Shown piece by piece: positions 21,164-27,465 of a stretch of 60,440 bases of DNA. Positions within the stretch are counted from its first letter, which is position 1, and each line of letters starts with the position of its first letter. A model generated the notes under the pieces. That model had not been told where the DNA came from and ran no database searches. It worked only from the letters and a program-made list of their open reading frames with translations. A program made the position numbers and the translations under genes. Origin of the DNA: Euryarchaeota archaeon TMED192 (lineage in GTDB: Archaea; Thermoplasmatota; Poseidoniia; Poseidoniales; Thalassarchaeaceae); NCBI GenBank assembly GCA_002170775.2, contig NHIP02000003.1, positions 48,931 through 109,370 on the forward strand. The letters run 5' to 3'.

Positions 21164-22402
21164 ATGAGTGAGAATATTTTCGACTCTCTTATCGAAAATA
21201 ATTCTCTTTTTGTAAATCGTGGGGCTTTCGAGCATGGTTTCGAACCTCAGAATCTCCCTCATCGTGATAAGGAGGTTCGGGCCCTTGGGGAGAATCTTGT
21301 TGAAGCTTTAAGAGGGCATATTCCGTCAAACATGCTTCTGTACGGGGTTCCTGGATCTGGAAAGACAATTGTCACCAAGACGGTTCTAAAACAGCTCAAA
21401 GCGAAAGGAAAGGCAAATGGAACTGCTGTCAAAGCGTACACCATTAATTGCAGGACTGTGGATACCAAATATCGAGTTGTTCAAGCTCTTGCGAATCGTC
21501 TTGAAAGGGATGAAGATGTGAAAATTCCTTTCACTGGATGGCCAACTGACAGAGTTCTTGAGGAGTTTCGAAGAAGGATGGACCGCAGAGGCGGAATCCA
21601 TGTGATAGTGCTTGACGAAATAGATCACCTTGTGTCGAAAGTTGGAGATTCAATAATATACAATCTTACTAATCTCAATTTGGAATTAGAGTCGTCCAGA
21701 TGCTGCATTATCGGCATTAGTAACGATCTTTACTTCACAAAGATGCTGACGCCCCAAGTAGCATCAAGGCTTGCCCAGATTGATCTCGTCTTCCACCCCT
21801 ATGGTGCAAATCAGATAAATGACATTCTCGAAGACAGAGTGCTGAGAGGGGTTCGATCTGGTGCTCTGGAAAGTGGTGTGATCGGATTGTGTTCTGCATT
21901 GGCTGCTCAGGAACATGGCGATGCACGAAGAGCTCTTGACCTTCTTAGAATCGCAATCAAGAAGGCGCAAAAAATGGGCCATGACCTGGTAGACAAGGGA
22001 CATGTCAGACTCGCACAAAGTCAACTTGAGCATGATCAACTGACGCCAGTATTGAGAACCCTCCCCCTTCAACAAAAGATTCTGCTCTTTTCAATCTGCA
22101 TGAATGAGGACAATGGACTCAGGAATATTTCCACCGGGGAAATATTCAGAACTTATTCAGAGGTATGTCTCAGGATTATGATAGAACCCCTCACGCCTAG
22201 AAGGATATCATCTCTTCTAAACGAACTAGATAGTCTTGGGATTATAATCGCAAGGAATGTCAGCAAGGGTCGTGGCGGAAGAAGCAAACAGATCAATTCA
22301 GCGATACCAGGGTCTCTCGACGTTATGACTGAATTGAGAGACTCAGAACCACTCATTGTGGAAGCTTCGAAGGGGAAATATCGTCTTCAGAGGCCCCTCT
22401 GA
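21164..22402 (+). CDS. cdc6: Orc1/Cdc6 replication initiator
   Basis: 412 residues. The AAA+ domain has Walker A GVPGSGKTIVTK, Walker B VIVLDEIDHL, sensor 1 GISNDL, and the box VII/sensor 2 region HGDARRALDLLRIA. A C-terminal winged helix for DNA binding ends the protein (about 320-412, including PLTPRRISSLLNELDSLGII). It recognises origins and loads MCM. The ATG follows an AT-rich stretch with no strong Shine-Dalgarno. It lies beside the 384-bp candidate origin and is followed 19 bp later by a membrane protein gene. Confidence 0.95.
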   Translation: MSENIFDSLIENNSLFVNRGAFEHGFEPQNLPHRDKEVRALGENLVEALRGHIPSNMLLYGVPGSGKTIVTKTVLKQLKAKGKANGTAVKAYTINCRTVDTKYRVVQALANRLERDEDVKIPFTGWPTDRVLEEFRRRMDRRGGIHVIVLDEIDHLVSKVGDSIIYNLTNLNLELESSRCCIIGISNDLYFTKMLTPQVASRLAQIDLVFHPYGANQINDILEDRVLRGVRSGALESGVIGLCSALAAQEHGDARRALDLLRIAIKKAQKMGHDLVDKGHVRLAQSQLEHDQLTPVLRTLPLQQKILLFSICMNEDNGLRNISTGEIFRTYSEVCLRIMIEPLTPRRISSLLNELDSLGIIIARNVSKGRGGRSKQINSAIPGSLDVMTELRDSEPLIVEASKGKYRLQRPL

Positions 22403-22421
22403 ATTATGATTGGGCCCGGCA

Positions 22422-22964
22422 ATGGTTAAACAGAGGGCCAAGGTGCCGCGAGCAATGGCACAGAGTTCTTGGAAGGATGAAGTAACCAAGCCTAGTAGAT
22501 TCTTGTCGGTTGTTTCATTCTGTATAGGGGCGTGGCTTGCCTTTGTCTCATTAATTAACGTAGCATTCGGAGCTTTCGCCCCGGGGCAGAAAATCGAATG
22601 GCTGGGCTTCATGGATGGCTCAAGTCTCTCTGAGGCTTATTCAGCGCATTCCTCCATATCTATTGGCGTTGGCGATATTATTGCATTTGTTCTTGCAGTG
22701 ATTCTAATTGTAATCGGAGCAAGGGGCATAGAATCTTCCTCTGGATTGCGCACGTTCCTGCAATCAATAATTCAAAGACCTCGTCAAATGATGAGTTCCG
22801 ATGATGAGTTATCCCTCGTTGTGGCAAACTGGATGGTAGTCGGCGGGATTGTATTCTACGTAATCTGGTCCACGATTAATACCACGTGGGTTGATCCCGG
22901 TGTTTATTCAGTTTCCATAGTCGTGATTGCTAGTGGTCTAGGCATTGAAGCCATGCACGAATAA
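22422..22964 (+). CDS. Four-helix membrane protein, hypothetical
   Basis: 180 residues from the ATG at 22422. An in-frame TTG at 22410 and an ATG at 22455 are alternatives. Hydrophobic segments lie near residues 27-45, 79-95, 132-149 and 158-174, giving about four helices with a basic N-terminus. No domain is recognised. It follows orc1/cdc6 on the same strand by 19 bp and may share its transcript. It converges on the CoaD-DUF359 gene. Confidence 0.75.
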   Translation: MVKQRAKVPRAMAQSSWKDEVTKPSRFLSVVSFCIGAWLAFVSLINVAFGAFAPGQKIEWLGFMDGSSLSEAYSAHSSISIGVGDIIAFVLAVILIVIGARGIESSSGLRTFLQSIIQRPRQMMSSDDELSLVVANWMVVGGIVFYVIWSTINTTWVDPGVYSVSIVVIASGLGIEAMHE

Positions 22965-22980: not shown

Positions 22981-23997
22981 TCATGGGCTATCAAGAGCCA
23001 TGGATTCTAGAATCGCCCTGCAATTTTTCTTGGTCTCCAGATCAGTCACCCTGGTTACAACCCCCCTGCCAGGCTGTCCGTAAATTATGACTGAGTCAAT
23101 AGGTAGCATCAAATGGAGTACTATTGGTGAAAGGTCTTCTTCCCCATCAACTATGATCAGCGACTTTGATCCGTAATTTAGTGAATTGACGGCACTCTTG
23201 CATGTTTCGAATAATTGCGGGGTTAGTTTTCCTGCTGGATTCTGAGTGCTGGAAACTATGTCAAATTTTGAATGGTCGATGAGCTTTGTATTGGGCCAAT
23301 TATCTCGTTGTGTCATTCCATCTATTATTGCAATATCGGGAGTGCAAGAAAGTTTGAGTAGCCCCAACACAGTTACGTCTCCGACTGCGACGATATTCGA
23401 ATCGCTTTGAATGGATTCGAGGGCCTTGGTTAGGGCTATGGCATGATCTGATTCTGGGCCCTCGTGTAATGTGCCGAAAGGTGTTTTCAACATCAACTCA
23501 ACCTTTGGCGAGAGAGTTCTTGCACCATTGAAATCTGATTCGTGGATAAACAACTCTCCTGACTGATCTATCCTACCATTGCGGATACGCGAGCTTGAGA
23601 TTAATTGGCCATCAGACCCCCTGGCATGCTCTATCACAATGATTTCAAGAGGTTTCATTTGATTCTCAATTCGAATTCTGTTTATTTCTTCACAGCCGGG
23701 TAAAGTCTCATTAGTGCATATTATGGCATCTGCATCTAGGTGTTCAGTGGCAGGTCCAAAGGAGTCATGAAGCATATCAAATGATACTCTGCTCCTGGAA
23801 TCTGGATCGACAATCATCTCAATTTCTGAACGTCGCCTACTCCAATCCCAGCATCTCTCATCTTTCGTCTTTGCAACATCATCGCTGGTAATCCATATCT
23901 CTAGATGCGCGCATTGCTCCAGTGCTTGATTGATTAGCCGGGCGTGGCCCTTGTGCACACGATCGAAGGTCCCGCCGAGAAGGCCGCGTCGGAACAT
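22981..23997 (-). CDS. CoaD-type phosphopantetheine adenylyltransferase fused to DUF359 GTP-dependent dephospho-CoA kinase
   Basis: 338 residues. Residues 1-150 are an archaeal phosphopantetheine adenylyltransferase: GGTFDRVHKGHARLI holds the HxGH-type motif (HKGH) and ISSSRIRNG the family's ISSTxIR. Residues ~165-335 match DUF359: VGDVTVLGLL, PDIAIIDGMTQR and LIIVDGEEDLSPI. DUF359 proteins have been shown in Thermococcus to be GTP-dependent dephospho-CoA kinases. The fusion would therefore carry the last two steps of CoA synthesis in one chain. The frame extends to 24129, but the fold begins right at the ATG at 23997. Family assignments are strong; the activities are inferred. Confidence 0.85.
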   Translation of the reverse strand: MFRRGLLGGTFDRVHKGHARLINQALEQCAHLEIWITSDDVAKTKDERCWDWSRRRSEIEMIVDPDSRSRVSFDMLHDSFGPATEHLDADAIICTNETLPGCEEINRIRIENQMKPLEIIVIEHARGSDGQLISSSRIRNGRIDQSGELFIHESDFNGARTLSPKVELMLKTPFGTLHEGPESDHAIALTKALESIQSDSNIVAVGDVTVLGLLKLSCTPDIAIIDGMTQRDNWPNTKLIDHSKFDIVSSTQNPAGKLTPQLFETCKSAVNSLNYGSKSLIIVDGEEDLSPIVLHLMLPIDSVIIYGQPGRGVVTRVTDLETKKNCRAILESMALDSP

Positions 23998-24342
23998 GTG
24001 CCTCCATCTTGAGTCTCGAACTTTAGGGCTGCGGGTAATGTGCCCCGGGGCGTAACGGGCGCCATCATCGCGATGGCTCCGGGCCCTGACCCACCCCGGG
24101 ACGTCTGTAGGAGGATGGGGTTGTCCCATGAGTCATTCCGTAGTCATCTGGGGACCCATCATCCTCCATCCGTACGATTGCTCCGCAGATCATCCCAATA
24201 GGTCACGGCGGTCTTCGTCGTCCGGTGGCCCGAACCGTGGTACCGCGGTTCATCCTAAGCCTCCGGCGTGGGGGCTTCGTCGACGCGGTGTTGCCGGACG
24301 GGCATCACGTCCGGAGAATGTTGTAGATATCAAGTCATGGAA
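23998..24342. other. GC-rich spacer with strong hairpins, possible structured RNA
   Basis: 345 bases between two leftward genes, clearly richer in G+C than the surroundings. Stems seen: GCCATC/GATGGC near 24061-24077; GGAGGATGGGG at 24110-24120 with CCC plus CATCCTCC at 24155-24167; a near-perfect 20-base palindrome at 24232-24251; and CCGGACG/CGTCCGG near 24294-24314. High GC with several stems in a moderate-GC archaeal genome often marks a noncoding RNA. SRP and RNase P RNA signatures were looked for on both strands and not found. It could also hold the promoter of the downstream CoaD fusion. Strand and identity are unknown. Confidence 0.35.
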
Positions 24343-26901
24343 TTAACTGCCGGGGCGTGTATCTATGGCATATCTACTCCTGCCAATGAGTAATCTGGCC
24401 ATGACCATAGAGTTGCCCTGCATGGTTTCGATATGCGCCATATCGGGCCATTTATCGAAGGGTTGGGCTAGCCATCCGACCATCTTGTGACTCTTTCCAT
24501 CTACTGGGGGGGAACCCGATGAGGCCTTTTCCAAGGCCATTAAGAGATCAGATATGTGAATTAATTGTAAATCCTCGAGAGCTTCTAGACCCATTTCAGA
24601 TTGTATTGCGTCTTCGAGTCTTCGAAGTAAGTCATTACTCTGCCCGGGGTGTTCTAATCCTTCTGTTCCCGGGAGAGAGTGGTATTCGCCTTTAGGCCTG
24701 AGTATTAATGCAGCCCAGGGGATGGAAGATAGCTTTGGTTGATTCCACCAATCTTCCATTTTGATGATGTTCAACAATAATTGTTCAGATAATGGTGCAT
24801 ACCACTCCATGGGAAGATGCTGGATTACAAGGCTTGAGAAAGAGGGGGTCAATCTACCTCTTCCCTGCGTTATGCGGACGAATCTTGACCATGTGCTAAG
24901 ATCTGAATTTGGATGTCCAATCGCTGATTTATGGACCTCATTAAAGAATTCATCCAGATTTTCTAAACCTTGTACTTTCATCGCAGCGGAAAGTGTGTCA
25001 ACAGATATTTCAGGTGGATTCTGGAGCCACGCGGGGATGGCCCAACTTTTGAGATCCTCGATCATGTCTCTTGAGAGATGATTTGCAAAGGTTAGGAGTC
25101 GTGAAGCAACCCATGATGACCCGCGGGAAGAAAATTCTGCGGGAGTCATTGGTCGCACATCGAAAGCGAAATTTGGATTTTCAGATATTATTTGGCTGAA
25201 TTGTTCCGAATAAGCTGTTTGGAGATCGGGGGTGGTTTGATTCATCAACTCATGGACTTCGTATTCAGGCATATCCTCAAGACGAATCATTGCTAACCAT
25301 TTGATGTGCACCCTATCCCCGATTCGTTTCCATCTATGCCACCTGAGGCCGGGGGGCGTGGCTATCAGAGATGCTTCCGGATGCTCCGCTTCAATAGAGT
25401 TGGCCCAATCCTCATTTTGGCCAAGCATCTCACTTATAGATTCTAGAATAATGGGGTCAGAAGACTCTGAAGAGTCTAATTGAACTTCCAACTTTGATTG
25501 GATTGGGCCTATTTCGTCTATCTGTGTCGTAGGAAACCGATTTCGCTTCCCATCGTCGATACGAACAGGAGATGATAATCCGGCTGGATCTGAATATCTT
25601 GTCCAAGGGAGTGGCCTCGTAGAATCGGCACTCAATCTTGCTACTCCGGGGATATTGACTGAAGGGTCGATTTGTATTATGCCTCTATCCAAATGTCTCA
25701 TACAATCATGAATTAGATATTCTGGGAGATCTTCTTCAATTTCAACCCGCATAGGAATCTGGGCATTTGTTTGGATGGCCCACTCAATCAGGGAATGTCT
25801 TGCTCTAACGCCTAGATTGGAAGTATTAAGACGAATATCATTGATTTCTTTGATTTCAAAAAGGGAGTCCCCCCAATCTAGTCTGAATCGCCGCAGAGTT
25901 TCTTCAGGGACACGTGATCTTCTTCTAAATAATATTCTATCTTTCAAGGCTTGTGTCCTTCGACGAAGTTCAGAAGGATTTGTTCTTGGATGTGCTAAAC
26001 GTATCCAATTATCCAGTACCTCCAAAGGGAATACGGATTGGTGATTCTTGTTGTCTTGTATCCTGCCAATTGTAACAAATTCATCAGGGGTAATTCTGGA
26101 TATTAATGATTTACCCATCCGTCCTTCGATATCGACTACAAGTATTTCAGGCGAAAACACGGGTGTGGAATTGGGATGTATCGTTCCTAAACGTATACTA
26201 TATTCAGAATATGACGAAAATGGATGTATCGCCAAATCGAACCTAGGTGTAAACCAAGTTCCAGGAGTGATTGAAATTGGCCTTCCGGATTCAATTATTC
26301 GAGCATGAAAAATGCATAACGGCCTATTGACTTCAGAGAAGGACTCAATCTTATTTGGGTCTCCAGACGCACTCGGTGCAGCGCATAATTTTCCCGTATG
26401 TGGATTGATCCATCGACGAATTTTATTTTCTACTTCGGCAAGTATCCAAATGACCCCTTCGTTTCCACTGGAATCCGTAATGGGAAGAGGACGATCCGGG
26501 ACTGCTATCGAAGCCTGATCGAATGGCAAGGTGGAGGCGAGTAGAAGTTGGTCCCGATCACGCGATACCATGCACACTGCGTTACTTGAAGGAGGAATCG
26601 GCTTACATGATTGGACTCTATGAGCTTCGTCCAACATTATTGCCTCTCTACCTCTGTGTGTCAGGTATATCGAGGAGCCGCGAGTTCCTGGGTCTGCAGT
26701 ACTACTGACCATTCCCTCATTTCTGAGACGTTTCAACTCAGCAGAAACATGTGGCATCCTAAGACCAGTCTGTCGAGATATCTGGGCTACTGTCAAATCA
26801 GAACGAGAGAGGGCGAAAAGAACCCTTCTACGGTGGAGTCCCCGGATTCTCCGAGGTTTGTCTTCAGAGTTGGGAGATATGATCTCGGCCATCAATGACA
26901 C
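24343..26901 (-). CDS. Very large winged-helix protein of unknown function (852 aa)
   Basis: 852 residues. Residues ~20-90 are a winged helix-turn-helix: RRVLFALSRSDLTVAQISRQ, then RMPHVSAELKRLRNEGMV and a wing ending LTHRGREAIM, as in MarR/ArsR-like regulators. The remaining ~750 residues match no family I recognise. They are rich in Trp, Pro and Ser and include RRRTQALKDRILFRRRSR. No P-loop, membrane segment or zinc cluster is evident. A regulator with a large sensing or scaffold domain is the simplest reading. It diverges from the small wHTH gene across a 303-bp AT-rich spacer. Confidence 0.85.
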   Translation of the reverse strand: MSLMAEIISPNSEDKPRRIRGLHRRRVLFALSRSDLTVAQISRQTGLRMPHVSAELKRLRNEGMVSSTADPGTRGSSIYLTHRGREAIMLDEAHRVQSCKPIPPSSNAVCMVSRDRDQLLLASTLPFDQASIAVPDRPLPITDSSGNEGVIWILAEVENKIRRWINPHTGKLCAAPSASGDPNKIESFSEVNRPLCIFHARIIESGRPISITPGTWFTPRFDLAIHPFSSYSEYSIRLGTIHPNSTPVFSPEILVVDIEGRMGKSLISRITPDEFVTIGRIQDNKNHQSVFPLEVLDNWIRLAHPRTNPSELRRRTQALKDRILFRRRSRVPEETLRRFRLDWGDSLFEIKEINDIRLNTSNLGVRARHSLIEWAIQTNAQIPMRVEIEEDLPEYLIHDCMRHLDRGIIQIDPSVNIPGVARLSADSTRPLPWTRYSDPAGLSSPVRIDDGKRNRFPTTQIDEIGPIQSKLEVQLDSSESSDPIILESISEMLGQNEDWANSIEAEHPEASLIATPPGLRWHRWKRIGDRVHIKWLAMIRLEDMPEYEVHELMNQTTPDLQTAYSEQFSQIISENPNFAFDVRPMTPAEFSSRGSSWVASRLLTFANHLSRDMIEDLKSWAIPAWLQNPPEISVDTLSAAMKVQGLENLDEFFNEVHKSAIGHPNSDLSTWSRFVRITQGRGRLTPSFSSLVIQHLPMEWYAPLSEQLLLNIIKMEDWWNQPKLSSIPWAALILRPKGEYHSLPGTEGLEHPGQSNDLLRRLEDAIQSEMGLEALEDLQLIHISDLLMALEKASSGSPPVDGKSHKMVGWLAQPFDKWPDMAHIETMQGNSMVMARLLIGRSRYAIDTRPGS

Positions 26902-27204
26902 CCACTGTCAATCATAACATGTTTTACTAACCATTTATTCTATTAAAATGTTATTTTTGTTATATTATATTACATATTTCCAGTAGAAAATAACTTATTG
27001 TCGTTGCAATGTACTCATTAAGTCGGCAAGATGAGGGCTATTCCTGCAACTTGATGTAACCAAAATGCTGACTCGACCAAGAAGCGTTATATTGTGGTCG
27101 ATTGTCCTGTGCTATAACGCTGAGGCGGAGGGTTACTGAGAAAGGCTGCAATAGTCTTTCAAATAGCCTTCTGGTAATGCGTTTGAAGCGGAGGTGCAGA
27201 TCTA
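26902..27204. promoter_or_regulatory. Divergent regulatory spacer between two wHTH genes
   Basis: 303 bases. The left part (about 26915-27000) is strongly AT-rich with several TATA-like stretches and probably serves the leftward 852-residue gene. The right part contains an exact 8-bp inverted repeat (27084-27091 and 27113-27120). The small wHTH gene has GGAGGTG about nine bases before its ATG, a clear ribosome-binding site. No ORF of useful size is present. Confidence 0.5.
27084..27120. repeat. Perfect 8-bp inverted repeat, candidate operator
   Basis: GCGTTATA at 27084-27091 and its exact reverse complement TATAACGC at 27113-27120, separated by 21 bases. The centre-to-centre distance is 29 bases, close to three helical turns, so a dimeric wHTH pair could bind one DNA face. 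The right arm contains a TATA-like sequence, so binding could block TBP. It lies 84 bases upstream of the small wHTH gene. Confidence 0.5.
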
Positions 27205-27465
27205 ATGAGAACAACAAGACTTAGAGAAAAAATCAAGAAATTCCTGAACGAGAGGGGGCAGGCGAACACTACTGAGATTCTCGAGCATGTCAATTCGACA
27301 ATGCGCCATGGCACTACCCCTCAGCAACTCGGCAATGTACTTTCAAAGGACAAAGATATTCGCAAGATAGCGACAACGAAGCGTGGGGGCGCCCTCTCAG
27401 GGAGATACGAGATATGTGTCTGGACGCTTCGAGAGGACGAGCGAAATCCTGGACTTCAAGGATGA
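27205..27465 (+). CDS. Small winged-helix DNA-binding protein
   Basis: 86 residues. KIKKFLNERGQANTTEILEH followed by TTPQQLGNVLSKDKDIRKI reads as helix, turn, recognition helix, then a wing (TTKRGGALSGRYEICVW). This is the compact wHTH plan with basic surface residues. A strong GGAGGTG ribosome-binding site supports the start. A perfect inverted repeat upstream suggests autoregulation. It converges on fba with a 2-bp gap. Targets are unknown. Confidence 0.78.
   Translation: MRTTRLREKIKKFLNERGQANTTEILEHVNSTMRHGTTPQQLGNVLSKDKDIRKIATTKRGGALSGRYEICVWTLREDERNPGLQG

Follow-up and report, generated by a model that had tools for sequence, protein, structure and literature searches.

Origin recognition boxes (ORBs), the boxes bound by Orc1, are usually described in archaea as paired intergenic sets near orc1. 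Regulators of the ArsR/SmtB and MarR families, which carry a winged helix-turn-helix (wHTH), are dimers of about 100-150 amino acids. F1-type ATPases and HerA, a hexameric DNA translocase, have a HAS barrel and a RecA core in common. The common archaeal ORB motif is TCCA[CG]T[TG]GAAA[TC][GA]AAGGGGT (PMC4164010), and in Methanomassiliicoccales paired ORBs adjoin orc1 (PMC4153887). An origin-linked wHTH protein other than Orc1, WhiP, has been described at oriC3 of Sulfolobus (PMC4010727). HgcG/Pab40 of Pyrococcus is an H/ACA guide RNA with two motifs (PMC4652768).

All of these systems can be compared with one locus in the window analysed here, the whole stretch of 60,440 nucleotides, which comes from a member of Candidatus Poseidoniales (marine group II). 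These uncultured archaea are abundant in surface ocean waters. In the literature that we searched, no paper describing their replication origin was found. The locus contains a gene for a very large protein, hereafter the giant.

The giant gene and its conserved block

The giant lies in an invariant block of genes, for which the window gives the following positions:

21164..22402, plus strand: orc1/cdc6
22410..22964, plus strand: small membrane protein gene, an invariant neighbour of orc1
22981..23997, minus strand: PPAT-like cytidylyltransferase and DUF359 (GTP-dependent dephospho-CoA kinase family)
24037..24310, minus strand: HgcG/Pab40-like H/ACA RNA gene, directly downstream of the giant and on the same strand
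24343..26901, minus strand: giant protein gene, 852 amino acids (wHTH at 17-100; predicted HAS-barrel/RecA-like part at 100-462; all-helical part at 464-852)
27205..27465, plus strand: small DUF3860 wHTH gene (PF12976; PDB relative 2od5)

The giant ORF comprises 852 codons and starts with GTG. Compared with four close species, synonymous differences exceeded non-synonymous ones 6-8 fold, and they did so equally in the wHTH, in the middle and in the C-terminal part. The dN/dS of the whole gene was 0.12-0.18, with low values in each of its thirds. Matches were found in 38 of 40 relatives, and in most of the 40 the homologue was full length in a single long frame. Because of these full-length homologues and the low dN/dS, the giant is a real gene under purifying selection.

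The gene is normally single-copy throughout the order Poseidoniales and occurs in nearly all genomes of both families. It was absent from the sister lineage of the same class (0/7), and elsewhere in the phylum its wHTH alone had matches and no full homologue was found. All 79 giant loci from a contig scan of GTDB genomes belong to Poseidoniales; the homologous contigs are titled Thalassarchaeum, Thalassarchaeaceae, Poseidoniales or MGII euryarchaeote. No relative was encoded on viral contigs, a fold search of BFVD gave nothing below E 1e-3, and no internal repeats were found in the giant. Most of the sequences used are metagenome-assembled genomes. The preliminary description, made from the letters alone, had left the distribution across Thermoplasmatota to be checked, and the gene proved to be confined to one lineage, the order Poseidoniales.

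The neighbours are conserved as well. At 21 loci, drawn from both families, the genes follow each other as MBL, orc1, membrane protein, a glycosyltransferase in several genomes, PPAT/DUF359, giant and DUF3860, and the genes outside the block are reshuffled among these loci. In a larger count, which is biased to family 1, every testable family-1 locus had the divergent DUF3860 gene (75/75), the RNA gene (74/74), PPAT (72/72) and, given enough flank, orc1 (63/63). The orc1 gene of the block is the better-scoring and more conserved of two paralogues. The longest PPAT/DUF359 ORF (22981-24129, minus strand) starts inside the RNA gene. Since this longer ORF crosses the RNA gene, we place the actual start near 23997. 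A plus-strand ORF at 24128-24346 also overlaps most of the RNA gene and is probably spurious.

The DUF3860 protein is 98-100% identical among species whose giants are 82-90% identical, and its gene is tandemly duplicated in many genera. Its matches to TAL effectors were judged to be chance, as no stretch passes alone. The preliminary description had seen a regulator facing a small wHTH gene. The facing gene is indeed there, but the description missed the orc1 block, the RNA gene just downstream, the ORB within the ORF and the ORBs common to mcm and the probable origin.

The RNA gene fills the stretch between the giant stop and the PPAT start, which is nearly invariant among close species and conserved in both families, and it was also present at eight family-2 loci. 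Its consensus structure consists of H/ACA hairpins with a 3′ end CACA, and 29 of 39 pairs have compensating double changes. The sole Rfam match was HgcG/Pab40 (RF00064), at 20-32 bits against a gathering cut-off of 77; the best match among the homologues was full length, with 31.8 bits and E 4.6e-5 (one homologue). Identities as SRP RNA or RNase P RNA were rejected, both being located elsewhere in the genome. HgcG matches also occur in many other Thermoplasmatota. In one genome of another Thermoplasmatota family (G059), the HgcG RNA is also close to orc1 (locus L235, 5749-6028 and 6840-8078), hinting at an old linkage. An 856-aa ORF beside them was rejected as a relative of the giant, being TPR/ATPase-like and unrelated. 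The single gene that the HgcG neighbourhood in MGIII (L234) has in common with the window is an ORF that does not belong to the orc1-giant block.

Domains and predicted fold of the giant

The wHTH at residues ~17-100 is the sole part of the giant recognised by sequence libraries (Pfam, NCBIfam and PDB profile searches). The ArsR model HTH_5 (PF01022) matched residues 24-67 with 35.1 bits, above its Pfam cut-off of 22, the MarR_2 model scored just under its own cut-off, and an NCBIfam metalloregulator model stayed far below (29.4 bits against 55). This agrees with the MarR/ArsR-like N-terminus of the preliminary description. None of 25 homologues had another credible Pfam or NCBIfam family, and no PDB chain matched residues 100-852 by profile. 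The Walker A motif [AG]xxxxGK[ST] occurred in 0 of 78 homologues, and no hydrophobic segment exceeded a mean Kyte-Doolittle value of 1.04, in line with the earlier statements that the protein has neither a P-loop nor a membrane helix.

An AlphaFold model of the whole protein, built from 25 homologues (mean pLDDT 84, pTM 0.50), showed a beta domain and an alpha/beta part after the wHTH, and a C-terminal half made up of helices only; the helical residues 464-852 have no family match. Residues 100-462 modelled alone gave pLDDT 83.9 and pTM 0.80. Their six best fold matches in the PDB (Foldseek) were all HerA proteins (E 5.6e-9 to 2.4e-6), followed mainly by F1-type ATPases. The top match, SsoHerA (4d2i), had E 5.6e-9, probability 1.00 and a TM score of 0.55 of the query, although the rmsd of 10 Å makes it a loose superposition of a predicted model. 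The whole-chain search again placed HerA as the top family.

Sequence comparison did not follow the fold. With hhalign, residues 100-462 matched 17 HerA sequences from Thermoplasmatota at a probability below 1%, profile comparison with a V/A-type ATP synthase alignment gave nothing, and the Pfam HAS-barrel model matched none of the 25 homologues. Because Walker A is missing and the profile-profile comparison was empty, we regard residues 100-462 as HerA-like in predicted fold (a HAS barrel and a RecA-like core), but not as HerA. The earlier claim that about 750 residues lack a recognised domain is thus correct for the sequence (Pfam, NCBIfam, PDB profiles) and gives way at the level of predicted fold. 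The same holds for what had been named as evidence against that claim, a C-terminal region that matches a known enzyme family: HerA is such a family, in predicted fold only and not in sequence or motif. The DUF87 proteins of some relatives were rejected as paralogues, since they are FtsK/HerA-like with a P-loop and membrane segments.

The giant's predicted HerA-like fold occurs where HerA matches are missing. The HAS-barrel (HerA) and NurA models matched neither G000 nor the sampled Poseidoniales genomes listed, and they matched the class-mate (MGIII) and many other Thermoplasmatota. As these models are weak, the absence of HerA and NurA from Poseidoniales is suggestive only.

ORBs within the giant gene and across the genome

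The spacer between the giant and DUF3860 and the ORB within the giant have these positions:

26902..27204, no strand: divergent spacer, with conserved GTTACAT/ATGTAAC elements and 82% A+T over 26916-27000
26959..26990, minus strand: putative giant promoter element, a palindromic ORB-like core (of the type TTTCCAnTGGAAA, in the window TTTTCTACTGGAAA) that passes into a BRE/TATA-like stretch rich in A+T (GAAATATGTAATATAATATAAC)
27082..27097, plus strand: probable TATA region of the DUF3860 gene (AAGCGTTATATTGTGG), conserved, role inferred
26453..26472, minus strand: ORB TCCAGTGGAAACGAAGGGGT, giant codons 143-149, peptide SSGNEGV

Among 43 diverse spacers, the commonest 8-mers occurred in 24-29, whereas shuffled sequences gave no more than 9. 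The spacer in which operator-like repeats had been seen earlier thus does contain conserved elements. The giant promoter element is conserved order-wide (the 43 diverse spacers plus family 2), and no copy of this composite was found outside the spacer in seven genomes searched. Its ORB-like core has no G-string.

The scan for conserved spacer elements yielded the motif TTCCAnTGGAAA, which led to an exact ORB inside the giant. This site has the core TCCAnTGGAAA and the G-string and matches the published common motif without mismatches. Even when three mismatches are allowed, the window has no other match, with 0.04 expected. The codon alignment of about 80 homologues reads TCC Ann [GA]GA Ann nnn GGG Gnn. 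Codon 2 encodes Ser, Thr, Asn, Ile, Met or Lys and codon 4 Asn, Ser, Thr, Ile or Arg, while the first base A is fixed. Thus TCCAnn[GA]GAAnnnnnGGGG is nearly invariant within the order, even at synonymous bases, and the amino acids vary.

Codon usage is equally biased at this site. Of 34 diverged sequences, 32 encode the serine by TCC, a codon that makes up only 17% of serine codons in these genes, and the glycines are GGA in 30/30 and GGG in 34/34, against background usages of 34% and 19%. When synonymous constraint was scored in 892 five-codon windows across 35 diverged homologues, the top five scores all fell at residues 142-150 (z 12.3-14.1; mean 3.7, sd 1.6). The gene has only three nearly invariant third positions, TCC144, GGA/AGA146 and GGG149. 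In the model, the encoded peptide is a low-confidence loop (142-148). Since the amino acids vary while the bases stay fixed, selection acts here on the DNA and not on the peptide. The ORB was exact in 31 of the 36 genomes in which the N-terminal part of the giant was assembled, and diverged in the other five. Judged from the motif, Orc1 would be expected to bind this site.

In 40 genomes, the strict ORB pattern had 105 matches, compared with 8 for the reversed pattern. A genome in one contig (G025) has four exact ORBs. Two of them are inverted and 165 bp apart, the third lies immediately upstream of mcm and the fourth is in the giant. Inverted pairs 144-172 bp apart occurred in 11 genomes. In four genomes inspected, from both families, the pair lies upstream of a beta-CASP/MBL gene and around an AT-rich stretch. 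In four genomes inspected for mcm (MCM by Pfam), a single exact ORB lies just upstream of the gene:

L239 9747-9930, L240 8887-9049, L241 8557-8730 and L242 8011-8193: inverted ORB pairs, 144-165 bp apart, linked to beta-CASP/MBL
L243 7501, L244 5935, L245 6736 and L246 6170: single exact ORB upstream of the MCM helicase gene, with a GatB/GatE-type gene after mcm

The inverted pair by the beta-CASP/MBL gene, which is not beside orc1, is the best oriC candidate in Poseidoniales. It is possible that Orc1 controls mcm through the upstream ORB. The giant locus itself has one full ORB, whereas an oriC should have at least two, usually inverted, around an AT-rich region. The GC skew of G025, taken from 61 samples that cover 59% of the genome, did not point cleanly to an origin. 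Because the paired ORBs of Methanomassiliicoccales sit beside orc1, the origin and orc1 appear to have become separated in Poseidoniales, with one ORB retained inside the giant.

Possible roles of the giant and comparison with known systems

The gene and its block are conserved, its ORB is selected as DNA, and the genome-wide ORB set is small, with the oriC-like pair and single sites at mcm and in the giant. Through this common set of ORBs and through the orc1 block, the giant is linked to replication. We therefore give roughly even odds (about 0.5) to the reading that the giant is a DNA-binding protein specific to the order and connected with replication, and that Orc1 acts directly on its gene, together with mcm. 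Its biochemical activity and the direction of regulation are inferred. On this reading it would be a replication factor or regulator that binds DNA and probably does not depend on ATP.

By its family, the wHTH would bind DNA. The predicted HAS-barrel/RecA-like middle without Walker A might serve as an assembly or DNA-embracing scaffold and not as an ATPase, and the helical C-terminal half might contact partners. Orc1 would occupy the intragenic ORB, and possibly also the ORB-like core at the giant promoter. Expression of the giant and mcm could in this way depend on the initiator's state; one example would be repression while Orc1 is bound to DNA. The giant itself might take part in initiation or in events close to it, either as a factor that assists or limits the process or by regulating replication genes. 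Against Orc1 regulation count the position of the ORB, about 430 bp inside the gene and away from the promoter, and the missing G-string of the core at the promoter. The ORB could serve the chromosome, as a secondary origin or by titrating the initiator, without regulating the giant, and the adjoining CoA and DUF3860 genes could be the giant's own regulatory targets.

The giant might instead be an ordinary autoregulatory transcription factor of unusual size. Its wHTH, which is of the ArsR/MarR type, would bind the GTTACAT/ATGTAAC elements and control the giant itself, DUF3860 and perhaps the CoA genes, with the C-terminal part as a ligand or protein sensor and the ORB left to the chromosome. 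The constant divergence from DUF3860 is consistent with such a factor, as are the order-wide elements near both promoters and their composite found only there. However, it leaves the invariant orc1 linkage, the intragenic ORB and the HerA-like fold unexplained, and 852 amino acids are unusual for a single-target regulator. We consider it rather unlikely.

The 5′ half of the giant and the AT-rich spacer might also form a second origin beside orc1, with the giant as its dedicated initiator, in a logic like that of WhiP. An exact ORB, a second ORB-like core about 0.5 kb away, the 82% A+T stretch between promoter and giant start, and the adjoining orc1, as at the Methanomassiliicoccales oriC, would suit this arrangement. 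It seems improbable, because the single full ORB contrasts with the inverted pair around an AT-rich stretch upstream of the beta-CASP gene elsewhere, and the GC skew of G025 does not mark the giant locus. Finally, Poseidoniales might have lost HerA-NurA, and the giant, without ATPase, might then have taken the place of HerA in processing DNA ends or handling the chromosome. This would fit its predicted fold and the pattern of HAS-barrel/NurA matches, but is very improbable given the lack of Walker A, sequence similarity, NurA partner and adjoining repair gene and the weak models behind the loss.

The replication-linked reading with Orc1 as regulator can be made more specific, at some cost in likelihood. 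Tentatively, Poseidoniales may have an additional replication factor peculiar to their lineage, in which a wHTH is joined to a HerA-like ring scaffold that works without ATP. With an ORB inside its reading frame, the gene would be part of an Orc1-mcm-giant circuit in which expression of the replication machinery follows the occupancy of the initiator. The locus gives marine group II a testable map, with a candidate oriC, an ORB upstream of mcm and an ORB in a core gene. It suggests that an archaeal initiator may regulate replication genes through single ORBs, and points to a replication-linked protein family confined, as far as found, to Poseidoniales. The locus also shows clearly how a regulatory element in the DNA constrains coding sequence across an entire order.

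Compared with HerA (4d2i, 9x1m, 7f6d), the giant may be alike in the HAS barrel followed by a RecA-like core, predicted at 100-462 with HerA as the best fold match. Unlike HerA, it has no Walker A in the 78 homologues, no profile similarity, an additional N-terminal wHTH and about 390 helical C-terminal residues. NurA, the partner of HerA, is not among its neighbours, nor was there a NurA match in the Poseidoniales genomes listed. With ArsR/SmtB and MarR regulators it shares the wHTH (residues 24-74), but at 852 amino acids it is not a small regulator. WhiP differs in size and architecture and resembles it in logic only. The RNA gene is similar to HgcG/Pab40 (RF00064) in its 3′ hairpin and terminal ACA, although it scores below the gathering cut-off. 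The intragenic site matches the common motif of archaeal ORBs exactly, G-string included. Unlike the usual archaeal ORBs, it is single, lies within a protein-coding sequence and is conserved there across the order.
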